From the NCBI RefSeq assembly GCF_000372845.1, contig NZ_KB889963.1, positions 186,001-250,000 on the forward strand: a stretch of 64,000 nucleotides of DNA, read 5' to 3'. The DNA is from Methylocystis rosea SV97. GTDB lineage: Bacteria; Pseudomonadota; Alphaproteobacteria; Rhizobiales; Beijerinckiaceae. Positions 3,337 to 10,522 of the stretch are shown in pieces. Position 1 is the first letter of the stretch, and each line of letters opens with the position of its first letter. A program made the position numbers and the translations under genes. The notes under the pieces were generated by a model that was given only the letters and a program-made list of their open reading frames with translations, was not told where the DNA came from and ran no database searches.

Positions 3337-4164
3337 ATGAAGAAGCTCTCGCTTGTGGCCATCGCCGCCGTGCTCGCTACCCCCGCTTTCGCTGACCCGA
3401 TCGGCGCCAACGTCGGCATCAACACCTCCGTCTCGCAGGGCGTGAACGTTGGCAGCGTCACCAACCTCGGCATCAACAACGTTGGCGTCGTCAACCAGAA
3501 CGTCGCCGTCGGCGGCGGCATCACGATGGCGACCGACACGTTCAACCAGGCCAACACCAACTTCAACCTGGACACGCACGCCTTCAGCGTCGGCAGCATC
3601 GTCGACTCCGGCAACGGCGGCGACGCGGGCGACGTCAACGTCGTCGCGGTCAGCATTCCGGTTGCGCTGTCCGGCAATGAGGCCAATCAGGGCGGCCTCG
3701 CCGGCGGCCTTGCCATCCCGGTCGCGCTCTCTGCCAATGGCACGGCGCTGCAGGACGCGTCCGCGACCCCGATCGTTCCGATTAACGTTGGCGTCGGCAC
3801 CGGCGACAGCACCACCTCGTCGACCGCGACTGTCGGCACGGTGCAGGCCAATCTGGCTTCACAGCGTTCGGCTTCGATCGCCGGCTCCACCCAGCAGGGC
3901 ATTGGCAACGGCATCGACGCCAACGGCGGCAACGGCCAGGCCTTCATGATCACCATCAACTCCAACAACACCAGCATCGACAACACCTCGGTGTCGAGGA
4001 TCGAAGTCGACACCAACATCAATGTCGCCGATCGTGGCGGCGTCGCTGGCGGCCTGCGGATCGATGACTCCTTCAACCCGATCGATATCCAGGACAATGC
4101 GATCGCGCTCGCCGGGGTCGCGGTCGCCGCGAACCACAACGCCGTCGGCAACAACGCTCCCTGA
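3337..4164 (+). CDS. Secreted Asn/Gly/Val-rich protein related to curlin-repeat proteins
   Basis: A 275-residue protein with a clear Sec signal (MKKLSLVAIAAVLATPAFA, cleavage before DP). The mature part is almost free of Lys, Cys and aromatic residues and rich in Asn, Gly, Val, Ala and Ser. It has repeat-like phrases SVTNLGINNVGVVNQNVAVGG, pairs of SIPVALSGNEANQGG/AIPVALSANG, and two GGLAGGL/GVAGGL turns. The segment NLDTHAFSVGSIVDSGNG recurs, with substitutions, in the exported protein at 6902, so the two are probably paralogous. The composition suggests a stacked beta-solenoid or amyloid-type surface protein. RBS AGAAGGA precedes the ATG. It is the first gene of the block; function is inferred, not known. 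Confidence 0.8.
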   Translation: MKKLSLVAIAAVLATPAFADPIGANVGINTSVSQGVNVGSVTNLGINNVGVVNQNVAVGGGITMATDTFNQANTNFNLDTHAFSVGSIVDSGNGGDAGDVNVVAVSIPVALSGNEANQGGLAGGLAIPVALSANGTALQDASATPIVPINVGVGTGDSTTSSTATVGTVQANLASQRSASIAGSTQQGIGNGIDANGGNGQAFMITINSNNTSIDNTSVSRIEVDTNINVADRGGVAGGLRIDDSFNPIDIQDNAIALAGVAVAANHNAVGNNAP

Positions 4165-4225
4165 TCTTAGCGAGCCTGGCTAACATCGAGGGCGGCGCGC
4201 AGCATATGTTCAAAGGATCAGTCCT

Positions 4226-4495
4226 ATGAAGCCAATACTGCAAGCCGCCCTCGTCGTTCTCTTCGGTCTCTCTGCAATTGCGTCGCCCGCCGACGCAGCC
4301 AAGAGCCACAGGCAGAGACGATCTATAGCGGTCGTGGCTGAGGACAGTTCGCCGGCATGTCTCGGCGGCTATTTGGCGCAGACGGAAGCCCAGGATTATC
4401 TCAGAGACGACATCTGGGTCTTGGAGCCGGTTCCGGGCAGCGACAATCGCCCCTATCGCTTCGACTGTCGGCAGCCGGTTTTTTTCAGGCGTTAG
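4226..4495 (+). CDS. Small exported protein with two cysteines
   Basis: An 89-residue protein with a Sec signal (MKPILQAALVVLFGLSAIASPADA). The mature part is about 65 residues with a basic start (KSHRQRR) and two cysteines (SPACLGGY and RFDCRQP) that could form one disulfide. RBS AAAGGA lies 8 nt before the ATG. It stands between two repeat-rich secreted proteins on the same strand (61 nt after the first). No family is recognised. A periplasmic helper of the neighbours is possible, but only by position. Confidence 0.7.
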   Translation: MKPILQAALVVLFGLSAIASPADAAKSHRQRRSIAVVAEDSSPACLGGYLAQTEAQDYLRDDIWVLEPVPGSDNRPYRFDCRQPVFFRR

Positions 4496-4568
4496 CTCTT
4501 AGCGCTTTGTCTTTGAGAGTGCGCCGCCGCGCGCTTGGTCGTCATTTTTCGAGAGCTGGGAATAGACG

Positions 4569-5153
4569 ATGTCGCGAACCTCGCTTTTAGCCGCAATCTT
4601 CCTCCTGAGCGTCATGAATTCCGCCTTTGCGCAGATGGCGACGCAAAGCGCGCCTTTCAATTTCGCATATGGGTTCACCGGCGGATCGCAGTCGTCCATC
4701 GACCTCTCGCAGTCAGGCTTCGTGAACGTCTATTATGGAGTTCAGGATTCCAATCAGGCGAATCAAGCGGTGATCAACCAGAACGGACTCAACAACTATT
4801 CGCAGATGCAGCAGATCGGCGACTCCACGGGTCAGTCTAGCGGCAGCGCGAGCGTTCGCGGCGATGGTCCGCGTTATGGCGGACAGAATTACGCGTCCGT
4901 GACCCAGAACGGCGTGGAGAACAGTTCGCAGATCACGCAAATGGGCGGCACGAATGTCGCCGCGGTTGCGCAAAACTCCCATGTCGGAAATGGTTCGGCG
5001 CCTCGCGTGCTGGTGCCGACCGACGGCCCGATCTACCAGTCTTATCAAACGCCAGAAGGCTATCTCTCTCTGTTCGCCACGGACAGCATGAGTCTGGCGA
5101 TCTGGACGCCGCCAGGTCTGACGGCGACGAACAGCTTTGGACGAATGCACTAA
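4569..5153 (+). CDS. Curlin-repeat (CsgA/CsgB-like) secreted protein
   Basis: A 194-residue protein with a signal peptide (residues 1-21, cleavage after SAFA). The mature protein contains Gln/Asn/Gly repeats in the curlin pattern N-x-A-x-V/I-x-Q-x-G-x2-N-x-S-x-I/M-x-Q: NQAVINQNGLNNYSQMQQIG, NYASVTQNGVENSSQITQMG and TNVAAVAQNS. In CsgA-type proteins such repeats stack as amyloid strands on the cell surface. The C-terminal 45 residues (from about PRVLVPTDGP) are not repetitive. The usual partners csgG, csgE and csgF are not in the window, so the export route is unknown. A curlin-like fibre subunit or nucleator is the best reading. Confidence 0.82.
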   Translation: MSRTSLLAAIFLLSVMNSAFAQMATQSAPFNFAYGFTGGSQSSIDLSQSGFVNVYYGVQDSNQANQAVINQNGLNNYSQMQQIGDSTGQSSGSASVRGDGPRYGGQNYASVTQNGVENSSQITQMGGTNVAAVAQNSHVGNGSAPRVLVPTDGPIYQSYQTPEGYLSLFATDSMSLAIWTPPGLTATNSFGRMH

Positions 5154-5192
5154 CGACGAACCTTTGACTTGATGTCCAAAGGACAGGACTAC

Positions 5193-6752
5193 GTGAAAAA
5201 GCGAACAAAAATCGTCGTATCGTTCGCCTGCGCCGCCGGAATGGCCGGCGCGTCGACTGCGCTCGCACAGCCGGCAAGCTTCGATAAGGGCGTCGACGCT
5301 TCGATTCTGGAAGCTGAGCGCGCCATCCAAGAGCTCAACGCCGCGTCAAAAACGCGAGTGAAAGAGAAGCGTCCTGTCAGTCAGCCGGTAGCAAAAGCGG
5401 CTCCGCGGCCCGTCGTCAGAATGACGGGGCCGTGCAATCTGAACGGCAACACCCAATTTTTTCAAATTCCCTATATCGGCTTTTGCGGCGCGGTCCACGG
5501 ATCCTTTACCGGTTTCCTGGGCAAGGACTTTGCGACCGAAGACATAGCGTTCACGACGCAGCGCCTTCCTGCCTATCGATACGGATGGAACGGTCTCGGA
5601 TTGAGCGCCGCCGTTCCGATGTTGTACTATTGGAAAAATCCGCTCGTCGGCAAGACAACGTCCGGCGCTTATACCGGCACCTACAGCATGGTGAATTTTC
5701 TGGCGTTCCGGAACACGGATTACGGAACGATCTCCGTGTTCATCAACGCCGGATTGTTCGCCAGGACGGTAAAAAATTATGAAGGCGAAACGCGCATCAC
5801 GCTGAATCAACTTTACGGAAACTACTGGAGGGGCGCCTTCGATCAGGCCTGGGTTCAATGGGGCGGGCTGCGCGTTGGACTCCAGCCGTCGCTGTTCAGT
5901 TTCAGCCGTACCGGCTACACCTTCATGCCGGGCTACGCGTCCTACATGACGACGCCGGCGGTTTCGTACACCCACAGAATCGAAAATATCAACGTTCTCC
6001 CAGGTCTCCTGCCGCGCTTGGGCGCCTCGATCAGCGTATCGGCTGAAGATCCGACGCTGAGGCGTTATCCGGACGGGGTTCTGTCGAGATATCCGACGGG
6101 CATGGGATACCCGGACTTTGTCGCGCAATTGCGCGTCGGCGCGCCCGCCTTCGTCATCCACGCGTCGGGAGCGATGCACGAAATCAGGGATGTTTCCGCC
6201 AACGCTTACAATTCCTTCATGCCGAAATACTCCACGTGGGGCTGGGCTGCGCAGCTCGCCGGCGAATATCGTTGGAAGTGGAGCGGGCTCATCGGTCCCC
6301 TTGGCGGCGAAATGTACGGCAAGGCCATGCTATCGGCGACCGCCACTCAAGGCGCGCTGTCGTACCTCGGCATGCCGTATATGTCGATCGACTATGTGAG
6401 CAGCTCGACTGGAACGATCCAGAGGAGTTCCGGTCAGTCATTGATGGGATCCTACGAACATCTTTGGACTCCCGTGTTCAAGACCTCGATCACCGGAGCG
6501 GCGTTTCAGAGCTACATGGGCTCCGCCCCCGAGTTTCTGGGTTTCGGCAACGTCGCTTTCGGCTTCAATACGCAAGTCAGAGGTCAGCGCGTCGTCGGAA
6601 ACGCCGAGTATTGGGCCGGCGAGGGATGGGCGTTCGGGCTGGAAGGCGGTTGGACATGGAGCCAGGCCAACGGCCAATACCTCGGCGGACGCGGCCTGCC
6701 AGTGGCCGTCAACTTCCCGAACGTCCTCACCTATATGCGAAAGGCCTTTTGA
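5193..6752 (+). CDS. Porin-like outer-membrane beta-barrel protein
   Basis: About 519 residues from the GTG at 5193, chosen because AAAGGACAGGA sits just upstream and the protein then starts with a good signal (VKKRTKIVVSFACAAGMAG...ALAQ). An ATG at 5172 in frame is the alternative. After the signal comes a helical linker (ILEAERAIQELNAASKTRVKEK), then GPCNLNGNTQFFQIPYIGFCG. That is the two-Cys opening of alphaproteobacterial Porin_2-type barrels. Alternating aromatic and Gly-rich strands follow, ending in the terminal YMRKAF; a C-terminal Phe is the usual barrel-assembly signal. It lies 39 nt after the curlin-repeat gene and may serve as its outer-membrane partner, or may simply be a porin. 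Confidence 0.78.
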   Translation: MKKRTKIVVSFACAAGMAGASTALAQPASFDKGVDASILEAERAIQELNAASKTRVKEKRPVSQPVAKAAPRPVVRMTGPCNLNGNTQFFQIPYIGFCGAVHGSFTGFLGKDFATEDIAFTTQRLPAYRYGWNGLGLSAAVPMLYYWKNPLVGKTTSGAYTGTYSMVNFLAFRNTDYGTISVFINAGLFARTVKNYEGETRITLNQLYGNYWRGAFDQAWVQWGGLRVGLQPSLFSFSRTGYTFMPGYASYMTTPAVSYTHRIENINVLPGLLPRLGASISVSAEDPTLRRYPDGVLSRYPTGMGYPDFVAQLRVGAPAFVIHASGAMHEIRDVSANAYNSFMPKYSTWGWAAQLAGEYRWKWSGLIGPLGGEMYGKAMLSATATQGALSYLGMPYMSIDYVSSSTGTIQRSSGQSLMGSYEHLWTPVFKTSITGAAFQSYMGSAPEFLGFGNVAFGFNTQVRGQRVVGNAEYWAGEGWAFGLEGGWTWSQANGQYLGGRGLPVAVNFPNVLTYMRKAF

Positions 6753-6901
6753 TGAGGCTGGAGACATGTGGCGTTTCGGCCACATCGAGGATTCTATCGC
6801 AGTTCGTCGAGGTCGAAACGATCGACCGCGGCGCGCTGCAAAGCTAGGGTGACTGTAGGCAGTATCCGAACAACGAAGGCCAACTTCCAGGGACCAGACT
6901 C

Positions 6902-7258
6902 ATGAAAAAGCTGATCGCGACAATATCCTTCTGCACGCTCGCTGCCGGTTCGGCCCTCGCCGACGGTCAGAACAATCAGAACCAGAATCAGTCCCAAGCG
7001 TACGGCAACAATTATTCGGCCGTCACACAGATCGGCGTGAACAATAACGCCGCCGTCGTTCAAAACGGCTCGGTCGGCGGAAGCATGGTCGATCTTGGAT
7101 CGGGCAACCAGAATCAGAGCAATGTAAACATCGATAAGCAAGCCTTCGCGATCGGCAGCATCATCGACTCCGCAGGCGCCACGATCAGCAAGACGGACTC
7201 TGACAACATCTCCATTTCCAATAATGCGCAAGCCTCGATCGTCACGCCCATCCAATAG
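6902..7258 (+). CDS. Short curlin-repeat secreted protein
   Basis: A 118-residue protein with signal MKKLIATISFCTLAAGSALA. It starts with an Asn/Gln tract (DGQNNQNQNQSQ), then one canonical curlin repeat (NYSAVTQIGVNNNAAVVQNG). The segment NVNIDKQAFAIGSIIDSAG follows and matches a segment of the 275-residue protein at 3337. It thus links that protein to the curlin-type protein at 4569. CAGGGA serves as a modest RBS before the ATG. It is the last gene before the terminator at 7291. Likely a minor fibre component. Confidence 0.82.
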   Translation: MKKLIATISFCTLAAGSALADGQNNQNQNQSQAYGNNYSAVTQIGVNNNAAVVQNGSVGGSMVDLGSGNQNQSNVNIDKQAFAIGSIIDSAGATISKTDSDNISISNNAQASIVTPIQ

Positions 7259-7290: not shown

Positions 7291-7315
7291 AAACCCCAGC
7301 CCCCGGCTGGGGTTT
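7291..7315 (+). terminator. Rho-independent terminator of the curlin-like block
   Basis: A perfect 11-bp stem AAACCCCAGCC / GGCTGGGGTTT with a CCC loop begins 33 nt after the stop at 7258. The T-run is short (TTTGCGCTTTC). It ends the plus-strand block; a minus-strand gene converges on it. Confidence 0.8.
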
Positions 7316-7411: not shown

Positions 7412-8416
7412 CTATTGGGGCTGATATTTGCCCGCTCTGAAGATTCCGCTCTGCGATTGGCCATCGGGCAAGCTCATCGTTCCCTGTCCGTCCGGCTCGC
7501 CATTCTGGAACTCGCCGCGGTAGGAGGCGCCATTCGGCAGGGTGAGAATGCCCTTGCCGTGCGGACGTCCGTCGCGGAATTCGCCCACATATTTCTTGCC
7601 GTCGGGAAATGTATAAGCGCCCTTGCCGACGATCCGGCCGTTGACGAATTCGCCGCTGTAGCTTTCGCCGTTGGCGATCGTGTAAGTGCCTTTGCCGTGA
7701 CGGATGCCGTCGCGGAACTCGCCGACGTATTGTCCGCCGGACGCGAAGGTGATCGTGCCGCGACCGGTCGCTTTTCCGTCGCGGAACTCGCCTGCATAAA
7801 AGTCGCCGTTTGGAAACTTCAATCCGCCGACGCAGCGCTTCCAAGGCGTCGCCAAACTGACGTCGCAAGGCGGCAGACCGTTTTTCGACCCCTTCTGTTC
7901 CTTCTGCGCCGCGCTGCCGGCGTTCGGCTTCACGGCAAGTTCGCCGTCAACGAACTTTCCGGAGAACTTCTTGCCGTCTGGCATGGTGACGGCGCCCATG
8001 CCATTGGGAACGTCCTCCTTGAACTGGCCGACATAGATTTTTCCGTCAGCAGCCACCAATTTGCCCTGCCCGCTTTTCTTCCCGTCCTTGAAATTGCCGG
8101 TGTAGGACTCGCCGTCAGGATGTGTGATGGTTCCCTTGCCGTTTGGCGCGCCGTCGCGGAATTCGCCCCCGTATTTCTTGCCGTCCGTGAAAATGAGCGC
8201 GCCTTTGCCGTTGGCCTTGCCGCCCTTCATCTCTCCGATATAGCGGTTGCCGTCCGGCGCGGTTACGACGCCGAAGCACTGCTTCGAGATGTTTTCCTCG
8301 GAGCATTTTGGCAGTTTGCTTTGCGCCGACGCGGAGAGCGAAACGCCGGACGCGCCCGCACAAAGCGCAAGCAGGAAGATGCCGCGGCGGAAATTCGAGA
8401 CTGAAGCGTAAGGCAT
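7412..8416 (-). CDS. Exported MORN-repeat protein
   Basis: A 334-residue protein with a signal peptide (RRGIFLLALCAGASGVSLSASAQ). About eleven MORN motifs follow, of the form DG-x-x-Y-x-GEF-x-DG-x-x-x-GKG. Five lie in an N-terminal group and six in a C-terminal group, separated by a Lys/Gln-rich linker with Cys residues (PPCDVS, KRCVGG). Two further Cys lie near the mature N-terminus (KCSEEN, KQCFG). MORN repeats form a flat beta-sheet used for protein or lipid contact. An exported, Cys-bearing version suggests a periplasmic or surface structural role. The last motif is degenerate. Function is unknown. Confidence 0.88.
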   Translation of the reverse strand: MPYASVSNFRRGIFLLALCAGASGVSLSASAQSKLPKCSEENISKQCFGVVTAPDGNRYIGEMKGGKANGKGALIFTDGKKYGGEFRDGAPNGKGTITHPDGESYTGNFKDGKKSGQGKLVAADGKIYVGQFKEDVPNGMGAVTMPDGKKFSGKFVDGELAVKPNAGSAAQKEQKGSKNGLPPCDVSLATPWKRCVGGLKFPNGDFYAGEFRDGKATGRGTITFASGGQYVGEFRDGIRHGKGTYTIANGESYSGEFVNGRIVGKGAYTFPDGKKYVGEFRDGRPHGKGILTLPNGASYRGEFQNGEPDGQGTMSLPDGQSQSGIFRAGKYQPQ

Positions 8417-8571: not shown

Positions 8572-9414
8572 TCATTGCGGGCCGGTGAGCTTCGTCGCCA
8601 ACAGGGCGATGGTTTTTACGTAAACGCGCGCCTGATTCCACTCGAGCAGAACCGCGAAGTTGGGCTCGCCTTCATTCCAGCCCGCGCCCGTGCGCCAACC
8701 TTTCCCCTTGAGGAAATTCGCCGTCGAGGCGAGCGCGTCTGGCGTGGATCGTATGAGATCACGTCTGCCGTCGCCGTCGAAATCGACGCCATATTTCAGA
8801 TAGGAGGAAGGCATGAATTGCGTCTGGCCGATTTCGCCAGCCCAGTCGCCGCGCATCTGCGCCGGAGACATGTCGCCGCGCTCGACGATTCTCATCGCGT
8901 GCTTCAGCTCTTCGTGAAATTGCGCGGAGCGCCTGCAGTCATAGGCGAGCGTCGCGAGCGCCTGCATCGTCCTGAAGCGCCCATTGTCGGCGCCAAAGCC
9001 GGTTTCCAATCCCCAGATCGCCACGAGCACCGCTCCGGGAACGCCATAACGCGCCTCGATCTGTGCGAGAAGCGCCGCGTGCCGCTGAAGCAGCGCCCGC
9101 GCCTTGCTCAAGCGGCCGGGCGTCACCAGGCGGCTCGAAAACTTCTCGAAACTTTGGTGAAAAATCCGCTGTCCGCGATCGCGGCCAATCACCGCGTGAT
9201 CATAGGCTACGCCACTCAACGCAGCGTCGAGCGTCCGTTGTGAAACGCCTTCCGCCAGGGCGTCGCGTTTCACCTCCTCGAGCCACTGGCTAAAGCCGGC
9301 TGGCGACGATCCGCAGGGCGCGGCGCGCGCCGACACGGCGCACGCGCCCAAAGCCAGCGCGCTGGCGGCAAGTAACACGCCCCACGCCTTGGCGCTTTTC
9401 GACAGCCGGTTCAT
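8572..9414 (-). CDS. Lytic murein transglycosylase (MltB/SLT_2 family)
   Basis: A 280-residue protein from the ATG at 9414; a 12-residue upstream extension exists but the signal peptide starts here (MNRLSKSAKAWGVLLAASALALGACAVSARA). It cleaves peptidoglycan glycan strands with 1,6-anhydro-MurNAc formation in the periplasm. Diagnostic segments are VAIWGLETGFG (catalytic Glu), TMQALATLAYDCRRS, GEIGQTQFMPSSYLKYGVDFDGDGRRDL and STANFLKGKGW. It lacks the C-terminal peptidoglycan-binding domain found in longer alphaproteobacterial relatives. The Cys in LALGACAV resembles a lipobox, so lipid anchoring is possible. Confidence 0.9.
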   Translation of the reverse strand: MNRLSKSAKAWGVLLAASALALGACAVSARAAPCGSSPAGFSQWLEEVKRDALAEGVSQRTLDAALSGVAYDHAVIGRDRGQRIFHQSFEKFSSRLVTPGRLSKARALLQRHAALLAQIEARYGVPGAVLVAIWGLETGFGADNGRFRTMQALATLAYDCRRSAQFHEELKHAMRIVERGDMSPAQMRGDWAGEIGQTQFMPSSYLKYGVDFDGDGRRDLIRSTPDALASTANFLKGKGWRTGAGWNEGEPNFAVLLEWNQARVYVKTIALLATKLTGPQ

Positions 9415-9529
9415 GCCCGGCAGTTTAGTGGGCCTGCGAAGGCGCTGCAATCAGCCGCGCACCCTCACGGCGCCCGACCCTTGGCGGAATGCGCGGCCGG
9501 CGCCGGCATTCCTCAAGCGACGCGCTGAA

Positions 9530-9757
9530 TCAGCGGCGCTTTGCCTTGAACTGGCGTTTGCACGCGCTTGAAAGCTCGTTCATATGCGTGCGCAGGCATC
9601 TTTCGACGGCGATCGCATTGGGCTCGTCCGCCGCGCAGAACTTGTGGGAATCGCGCTCGCAGGCCGTGCGCTGCTTGTCCATCGTCCGAGCTGTCGCGGG
9701 ATTGAACGCGGCGAGGCCAATGAAGGCGGAAAGAGAAAAGATCAACAGCTTACTCAT
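9530..9757 (-). CDS. Small exported Cys-rich-repeat protein
   Basis: A 75-residue protein with signal MSKLLIFSLSAFIGLAAFNPATA. The mature part has Cys spacing C-x3-D-x3-FC...VERCLRTHMNELSSACKRQF. This matches the cysteine-rich repeat of GLG1 type (PF00839) found singly in small bacterial periplasmic proteins. Function is unknown. It lies alone between the transglycosylase and the CoA-transferase genes. Confidence 0.75.
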   Translation of the reverse strand: MSKLLIFSLSAFIGLAAFNPATARTMDKQRTACERDSHKFCAADEPNAIAVERCLRTHMNELSSACKRQFKAKRR

Positions 9758-9862
9758 CGGTTGCTCTTTCGTTTAGGCTAACGACCGCTGCGCAAAGTGC
9801 GCGACGCGGCCAGAGCGATACCTGTATCGAGCGTGGTCGATATCAAGTACGACGCCTGCCTG

Positions 9863-10522
9863 CTAATCGCGACAGAGAGGCATCTCAGGCGTAACTTCCG
9901 GCACGATCAGCCGCGCGCCAGTAGAGGCGACGATATCCGCGACGCTGACGCCGGGCGCGCGCTCGCGTAGCGCCAGCCCCTCATCGGTCGGCTCAATGAC
10001 GGCAAGCTCCGTCACGATCAGGCTGACGCGCCGCGTCGCCGTCGGTGGCAAGGTCAGAGATTCGACGATCTTCGGCTCGCCCTTGGCGACGTGCTGCATC
10101 GCGATGATGACGCGCTTGGCGCCCGCGACGAGGTCCATGGCGCCGCCCATCCCCGGCGTAAACTTTCCTGGAATCATCCAACTGGCGAGGCGTCCCGCGG
10201 CGTCGATCTGCAACGCGCCAAGCACCGCCATGTCGACATGGCCGCCTCGAATCAGCGCGAAGCTCGTCGCGCTATCGAAACTGGCGGCGCCCGGCAACGA
10301 CATGATGAGTCCGCCGCTGGCGTCAATGAGATCGCGATTCTCCATTCCCTCCGGCGGCGGCGCGCTGAAGCCGATAAGGCCATTTTCGCTCTGCATGGCG
10401 ACGGACATCCCCGGCGGGATGAAACGCGCCACGAGAGTCGGCAGGCCGATCCCGAGATTGACGAGCATGCCGTCGCGCAGCTCAAGAGCGACACGGCGGG
10501 CGATGATTTCCTTGGCGTCCAT
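9863..10522 (-). CDS. atoA: 3-oxoacid/acyl CoA-transferase, beta subunit
   Basis: A 219-residue beta subunit of a family I CoA transferase (AtoA/ScoB type). It moves CoA between an acyl-CoA and a carboxylate such as acetoacetate or short fatty acids. The catalytic Glu lies in the conserved QSENGLIG, preceded by GMLVNLGIGLPTLV; GAxxFDSAxSFALIRGGHVDMAVLGALQ and GKFTPGMGGAMDLV are further family blocks. The start overlaps the alpha-subunit stop by one base (TGATG), indicating translational coupling. The substrate cannot be told from sequence; sco and cat paralogues share these motifs. Confidence 0.9.
   Translation of the reverse strand: MDAKEIIARRVALELRDGMLVNLGIGLPTLVARFIPPGMSVAMQSENGLIGFSAPPPEGMENRDLIDASGGLIMSLPGAASFDSATSFALIRGGHVDMAVLGALQIDAAGRLASWMIPGKFTPGMGGAMDLVAGAKRVIIAMQHVAKGEPKIVESLTLPPTATRRVSLIVTELAVIEPTDEGLALRERAPGVSVADIVASTGARLIVPEVTPEMPLCRD

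Follow-up and report, generated by a model that had tools for sequence, protein, structure and literature searches.

How might a bacterium that encodes curlin-repeat proteins display them at its surface when its genome holds no CsgG? The question is raised by a locus of the methane-eating bacterium Methylocystis rosea SV97, located at 3337-7258 of a 64,000-nucleotide stretch of contig NZ_KB889963.1 (the window; genes are named here by their start coordinates within it). The locus comprises five open reading frames (ORFs), all on the plus strand and starting where an earlier note, made from the sequence alone, had placed them. That note had proposed a surface-fibre system whose outer-membrane component is a porin-like barrel (5193) rather than CsgG. 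The linkage of barrel and curlin-type genes and the absence of CsgG support this in part; the barrel's role in export or anchoring, and the fibres, are what we infer from them. We consider it slightly more probable than not that the locus encodes surface fibres of curlin type without using CsgG, in a system where a dedicated porin-derived barrel handles the subunits and one of these, 4569, is recognised by its C-terminal tail.

Curlin genes without CsgG have been described before. In its accessible parts, Dueholm 2012 reports that many Alphaproteobacteria carry curlin genes without CsgG and that csgE is missing from Alphaproteobacteria, and infers that whatever the missing Csg proteins would do must fall to alternative proteins (PMC3521004); the accessible part of a 2023 survey puts the CsgA carriers without CsgG at 1033 genomes, or about 2% (PMC10192328). 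In those portions, both surveys leave CsgG-less curlin genes unexplained. As described there, the alphaproteobacterial genes resemble the present locus in that curlin-like genes occur without the Csg export set, but they are often accompanied by csgH (PMC3521004), whereas here csgH is missing and the curlin genes have a conserved barrel as their partner. The open-licence literature yielded no account of a porin that partners curlin proteins, and a paper that mentions both curli and Methylocystis does not link the two in its accessible portion (PMC4827864).

The source genome (two contigs, 99.97% complete) gave no CsgG match anywhere, in a search whose control was positive in 4 of 14 genomes, including E. 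coli and Caulobacter. CsgF was absent from all nine genomes searched, that of the window among them. The earlier note had reported both as missing from the window and had named the rest of the genome as the place to look; neither is encoded there, and this check does not refute its core idea. CsgH was not found in the window's genome by a search whose 14-genome control was positive in none, though the same search recovered it in one of nine genomes (G908, a Paracoccaceae metagenome-assembled genome, MAG), at another locus. Among the genomes that bear the barrel, CsgG was not found in 15 of 16, namely 8/8 carriers from the window's family and 7/8 further carriers.

These 16 barrel loci were compared in all. 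A search of the family matched 13 of 149 genomes, eight of them strongly (E 7.6e-38 or better; the window's own genome, G138, G044, G001, G080, G031, G107 and G002) and five weakly (E 2.6e-8 or worse), the weak matches resembling ordinary porins and having no curlin-like neighbours. A scan of named genomes gave 14 barrel loci: seven strong family matches and seven new ones, from five Methylocystis or Methylocystaceae genomes, from L040 and from a Paracoccaceae MAG (L046). The order-wide search added G305, from another family. The barrel is 94-99% identical in Methylocystis sp. H62, L43, M. suflitae NLS-7, a Methylocystis MAG and a Methylocystaceae MAG. It is rare, being present in one of six genomes of the window's genus, in G000 and G001 only among 385 genomes sampled from the class, and in one of 325 genomes of the family of G908 (G908 itself); a plasmid search returned one weak match.

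A tailed curlin-like ORF lies near the barrel at 13 of the 16 loci (the window, L034, L035, L036, L037 with its 5' end cut, L038, G138, G044, G080, G031, G002, L046 and G305). The count rises to 14 with L040, whose contig begins inside an upstream gene with a C-terminus bearing the tail SFGRSH. In G001 the partner stands at the start of another contig (L117), and the ATPase gene that comes after it does so in G044 (L021) too; the 3.6-kb contig of G107 is too short for its neighbourhood to be judged. The gap between partner and barrel ranges from 17 bp to 5.3 kb, and is at most 40 bp in 9 of the 12 measured. This neighbourhood, whose absence from related genomes the earlier note would have taken as a refutation, is kept in other genera, in another family and in a Paracoccaceae MAG.

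Since porins that match the barrel profile abound in the order, with 116 of 397 genomes having one at E 1e-15, an ordinary porin could in principle lie next to unrelated Asn/Gln-rich proteins by chance. Yet a search for curlin-like ORFs, taken as those of at least three QxGxx[NS] units, found none at 16 loci of ordinary Porin_2 proteins, each spanning 5.0-16 kb, whereas such ORFs occur in six of eight lineages on the barrel side, the exceptions being the truncated L040 and L046, with its two units. The corresponding Fisher p values, 2e-4, and 4e-4 once near-copy controls are merged, are guides only because lineages and controls are not fully independent. The linked barrels also form one clade: in a maximum-likelihood tree rooted at the midpoint, with each ORF picked by profile, 14 barrels split from 26 ordinary Porin_2 proteins with branch support of 100/100. 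The 14 linked rows take in G107 and the split contigs of G001 and exclude the near-copies L035 and L037; wide flanks were examined for 15 of the 26 ordinary rows. Long branches lead to L046 and to one ordinary row. The ordinary-porin control and the tree together make a chance neighbourhood extremely improbable, and it was rejected.

The tree also places the barrel itself, whose porin-like character the earlier note had recognised. The gene (5193-6752, plus strand) encodes 519 aa when read from a GTG; the ORF list begins instead at an upstream TTG, at 5169. Against the Pfam Porin_2 profile the protein scores 20.3 bits, slightly below the curated cut-off of 22, and all 13 of 13 barrels match that profile at E<=0.01. 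RopA, a rhizobial porin, belongs to the same family. The barrels resemble the Porin_2 proteins in sequence family, in predicted general-porin fold and in an N-terminal Cys pair, and differ from them in forming a separate clade tied to curlin-like genes. The AlphaFold2 (AF2) model predicts about 16-18 long strands (mean predicted local distance difference test, pLDDT, 68) preceded by a low-confidence N-terminal helix at residues 34-57; most relatives are without a long N-terminal extension. Foldseek placed DcaP and PorB at the top; the best 50 rows are mostly porins, many of them of the OmpF type.

The partner of the barrel is most readily recognised by its C-terminus. In 4569 (4569-5153, plus strand; 194 aa) the tail region spans about residues 166-194 (5064-5150, plus strand) and ends in SFGRMH; it is a proposed docking or export signal. 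All 12 aligned partners share G191 and R192, in the window's numbering, although five of these rows are near-copies of others. The endings seen are GRMH, GRTH, GRAH, GRGH, GRR, GRRY and GRLR, with GRSH in L040, so that the shared form is mostly GR-x-H. The tail is absent from all 49 of the further curlin-like ORFs examined, which came from 27 loci of the order, although one ends in plain GR. A profile of the partners matched 77 of 397 genomes of the order, mostly through other curlin-like proteins, and among the matches listed its C-terminal end was reached only by G000, G001 and G044, all of them barrel carriers; G305, a tail-bearing barrel carrier, fell short of that end.

The partners are curlin-type proteins to differing degrees, 10 of 12 matching Curlin_rpt at E<=0.01. 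The earlier note had credited both 4569 and 6902 with textbook curlin repeats, a description that suits the first far better than the second. 4569 is a true curlin-repeat protein: it scores 26.1 bits against the Pfam Curlin_rpt cut-off of 20.7 and contains four QxGxxN units, versus 0.21 in shuffles (p=0.0002). 6902 (6902-7258, plus strand; 118 aa), an exported Asn/Gln-rich protein and possible second subunit, has one clear curlin unit (a single QxGxxN, p=0.19 versus shuffles) and gave no match in the Pfam Curlin_rpt scan. A looser pattern, N-x(3-6)-QxG, is enriched in it (5 versus 0.80 in shuffles, p=0.006), and it is 50% identical to 4569 across 22 aa. The third protein, 3337 (3337-4164, plus strand; 275 aa), is an exported Asn/Gly/Val-rich possible fibre subunit that matched nothing in Pfam or NCBIfam. 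BLASTP aligned it with 6902 at 38% identity (E 2e-9), which upholds its description as a related protein and identifies it, on sequence similarity, as a paralogue of 6902 over ~92 aa. Genome-wide, Curlin_rpt has three matches at E up to 10, every one inside this locus. Signal peptides of the locus proteins were called by eye.

On the most economical reading, the barrel would do the outer-membrane work of CsgG/CsgF, either exporting or anchoring. Curlin-like subunits would leave the cytoplasm via Sec and be handled at the outer membrane by the barrel, which might either pass them unfolded, as FapF does for the Fap amyloid, or hold the first subunit at the surface. 4569 would be the barrel's specific client, with the GR-x-H-type tail as its recognition or anchoring element, and tail-less repeat proteins would lengthen the fibre, a part that would fall to 6902 and 3337 at this locus and to pure curlin-repeat or NG-repeat proteins at others. 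The sharper proposal, that a porin-family barrel has become a dedicated curlin-amyloid export pore recognising this tail, by a route distinct from both CsgG and FapF, has in our view somewhat less than an even chance.

Two known amyloid systems frame this proposal. Like curli (type VIII secretion), the locus has subunits with Curlin_rpt units that are apparently Sec-exported, and the model of 4569 is a run of short strands: the AF2 prediction (pLDDT 67) has ten, of which the repeats account for seven and the tail region for three. Foldseek with this model gave no significant match in the Protein Data Bank (best row FapC, E 0.16, prob 0.02), and therefore no claim about the fold is based on it. 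Unlike curli, the genome holds no CsgG, CsgF or CsgH and has a Porin_2-clade barrel and a GR-x-H-type tail instead. The Fap system of Pseudomonas is similar in its working, being an amyloid system with an outer-membrane beta-barrel of its own, FapF, which, in the accessible part of its description, shows an unrelated barrel at work in amyloid export (PMC5557850). The predicted N-terminal helix of 5193 recalls the FapF coiled coil as described there (PMC5557850). FapF, however, is a 12-stranded plugged trimer, whereas the barrel here is a relative of Porin_2 for which about 16-18 strands are predicted, and the subunits here are of curlin type. No Fap family turned up in the Pfam and NCBIfam scans of the locus, which did not include a dedicated Fap profile.

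The position of the tail also bears on a less probable but serious alternative, in which the barrel is an anchor or nucleation platform where the tailed curlin would dock, as CsgB does on CsgG-CsgF in curli, while some other route would take the subunits across the outer membrane. The tail is C-terminal and was found in barrel partners only; each testable barrel locus has one tailed protein, and a tail-less QxG-repeat protein is also present at the G044, G080, G031, G002 and G305 loci. Tailed and tail-less proteins recall, by analogy, a nucleator and major-subunit pair, and would resemble the CsgB/CsgA division of labour. An anchoring role would also suit a barrel that looks like an ordinary porin fold. 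Set against this, no other outer-membrane component was seen, by eye, to recur at the loci, and an alternative route would still be needed.

It is improbable that the curlin-like protein is instead a periplasmic or outer-membrane accessory of the porin (a plug, stabiliser or coat) that forms no fibre. G138 does have a single QxG-repeat protein near its barrel, and 6902, the second repeat protein in Methylocystis, has a single clear curlin unit, both of which would fit such a role; the further repeat proteins that accompany the barrel at the loci of five other lineages point rather to a repetitive extracellular structure. A variant would have the barrel itself form amyloid, as the rhizobial porin-like proteins RopA and RopB are reported to do in the accessible part of the source (PMC6920782).

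Several observations weigh against a barrel-based fibre system. The partners have diverged: used as a single query sequence, 4569 recovers, of 149 genomes, none besides its own and G138. The barrel model is of middling quality (its N-terminal helix scoring lower still), its best matches are diffusion porins, and we know of no porin that lets proteins through. The pair is not always one operon, because barrel and partner stand on opposite strands in G044, where they are 5.3 kb apart, and likewise in G080, G031 and G002. G305 holds the pair together with one CsgG-family gene on another contig, of which 3.6 kb was examined and showed no curlin. Of 149 genomes of the family, 15 carry CsgG-family genes and none of these bears the barrel, but CsgG and the barrel are not significantly exclusive, and with p=1 this split is uninformative. 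Several barrel genomes are incomplete MAGs: G107 is 73%, G002 79% and G138 88% complete, the other five family-set carriers being at 97-100%, and the completeness figures cover these eight and one of the eight further carriers. In G908 a second locus (L121, 6326-7642) encodes two CsgA/B-like proteins and CsgH, with no CsgG match genome-wide, so that CsgG absence alone does not point to the barrel.

The full five-gene set extends less far than the pair. The earlier note had suggested surveying whether the five genes stay together; 3337, 4226 and 6902 were compared with the loci of 16 relatives, and the set holds within Methylocystis and reduces, beyond it, to the curlin-barrel pair, with 4226 added in G138. 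All five genes match at four of the five other Methylocystis loci (L034, L035, L036 and L038), L037 being cut. At L034 (6150-6969; Methylocystis sp. H62) the 3337 homologue is in two opposite-strand pieces, as if rearranged. 4226 (4226-4495, plus strand; 89 aa) is, as the note had described it, a small exported two-Cys protein (Cys at 45 and 81); it has no credible family in Pfam or NCBIfam and may be a periplasmic helper. Of the five other Methylocystis/Methylocystaceae loci, four have it, and in the fifth the contig is cut before the gene is reached.

In the G138 MAG (L020) a two-Cys homologue of 4226 (9418-9726, minus strand) lies directly upstream of the tailed curlin; its alignment score of 75 is reached by 0 of 1000 shuffles (maximum 48). 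The order there, on the minus strand, is a small exported protein (9861-10178), the 4226 homologue, the tailed curlin and the barrel, and the first of these, though placed like 3337, has no detectable similarity to it. At the seven other non-Methylocystis loci with the partner on the same contig, only tailed partner and barrel clearly recur; outside Methylocystis the recurring unit is thus the curlin-barrel pair. At L046 (5734-7105), three tandem small exported Asn-rich paralogues precede the pair, resembling 6902 weakly and chiefly in the signal peptide.

The condition of the genes bears on whether the locus could be a decaying relic of classical curli after loss of CsgG. The CsgG-family genes in the family and the divided 3337 homologue of L034 would accord with decay, but the ORFs are intact, and neither barrel nor tail belongs to classical curli. 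In Methylocystis comparisons, barrel, 4569 and 6902 are stop-free with ratios of nonsynonymous to synonymous substitution (dN/dS) of 0.04-0.28 (barrel 0.04-0.10, 4569 0.09-0.28, 6902 0.09-0.20). Purifying selection thus acts on these three genes, and a relic is very unlikely. The ratio is looser for 3337, at about 0.4 in two comparisons, and spans 0 to 0.78 for 4226.

Downstream of 6902, the earlier note had placed one terminator closing the group. A hairpin with a perfect 11-bp stem (7291-7315, plus strand) does stand between 6902 and a convergent MORN-repeat gene and is a likely terminator, but it has no long T run; a simple terminator scan listed nearby only an overlapping minus-strand site (7301-7278), and terminator-like sites are not in excess in the region (10 versus 9.8 in shuffles). 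By Pfam and NCBIfam, the minus-strand genes converging on the locus encode a MORN-repeat protein (7412-8416) and an MltB-type lytic transglycosylase (8572-9450), and genes like this pair also come after the locus at L034.

Other exported proteins and regulators adjoin the barrel elsewhere. Asn-Gly (NGN) repeat proteins that are exported lie near it at L021 (3899-6030), L023 (11171-13146), L022 (5422-5877) and L025 (3009-3581); G044 and G080 have them in tandem, the short contigs of G001 and G107 have a single one apiece, and a Pfam scan of the two from G044 found no family. In G044, G001, G080 and G107, all of one genus, receiver-type and LuxR/GerE-type regulators adjoin the barrel (L021, 6477-7843; L023, 6427-7897). 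Pfam supports LuxR in both pairs scanned, with receiver matches below cut-off. CsgD is also of the LuxR kind, and the regulator pair may possibly exert CsgD-like control.

With the barrel clade as a concrete candidate and the C-terminal tail as a molecular handle, the question of what fills the missing Csg roles becomes testable. If a general-porin fold does pass or hold amyloid subunits, this would be a new outer-membrane role for the fold. The occurrence of curlin-like proteins with their own branch of porins, mostly without CsgG, suggests a different way of displaying surface amyloid fibres.

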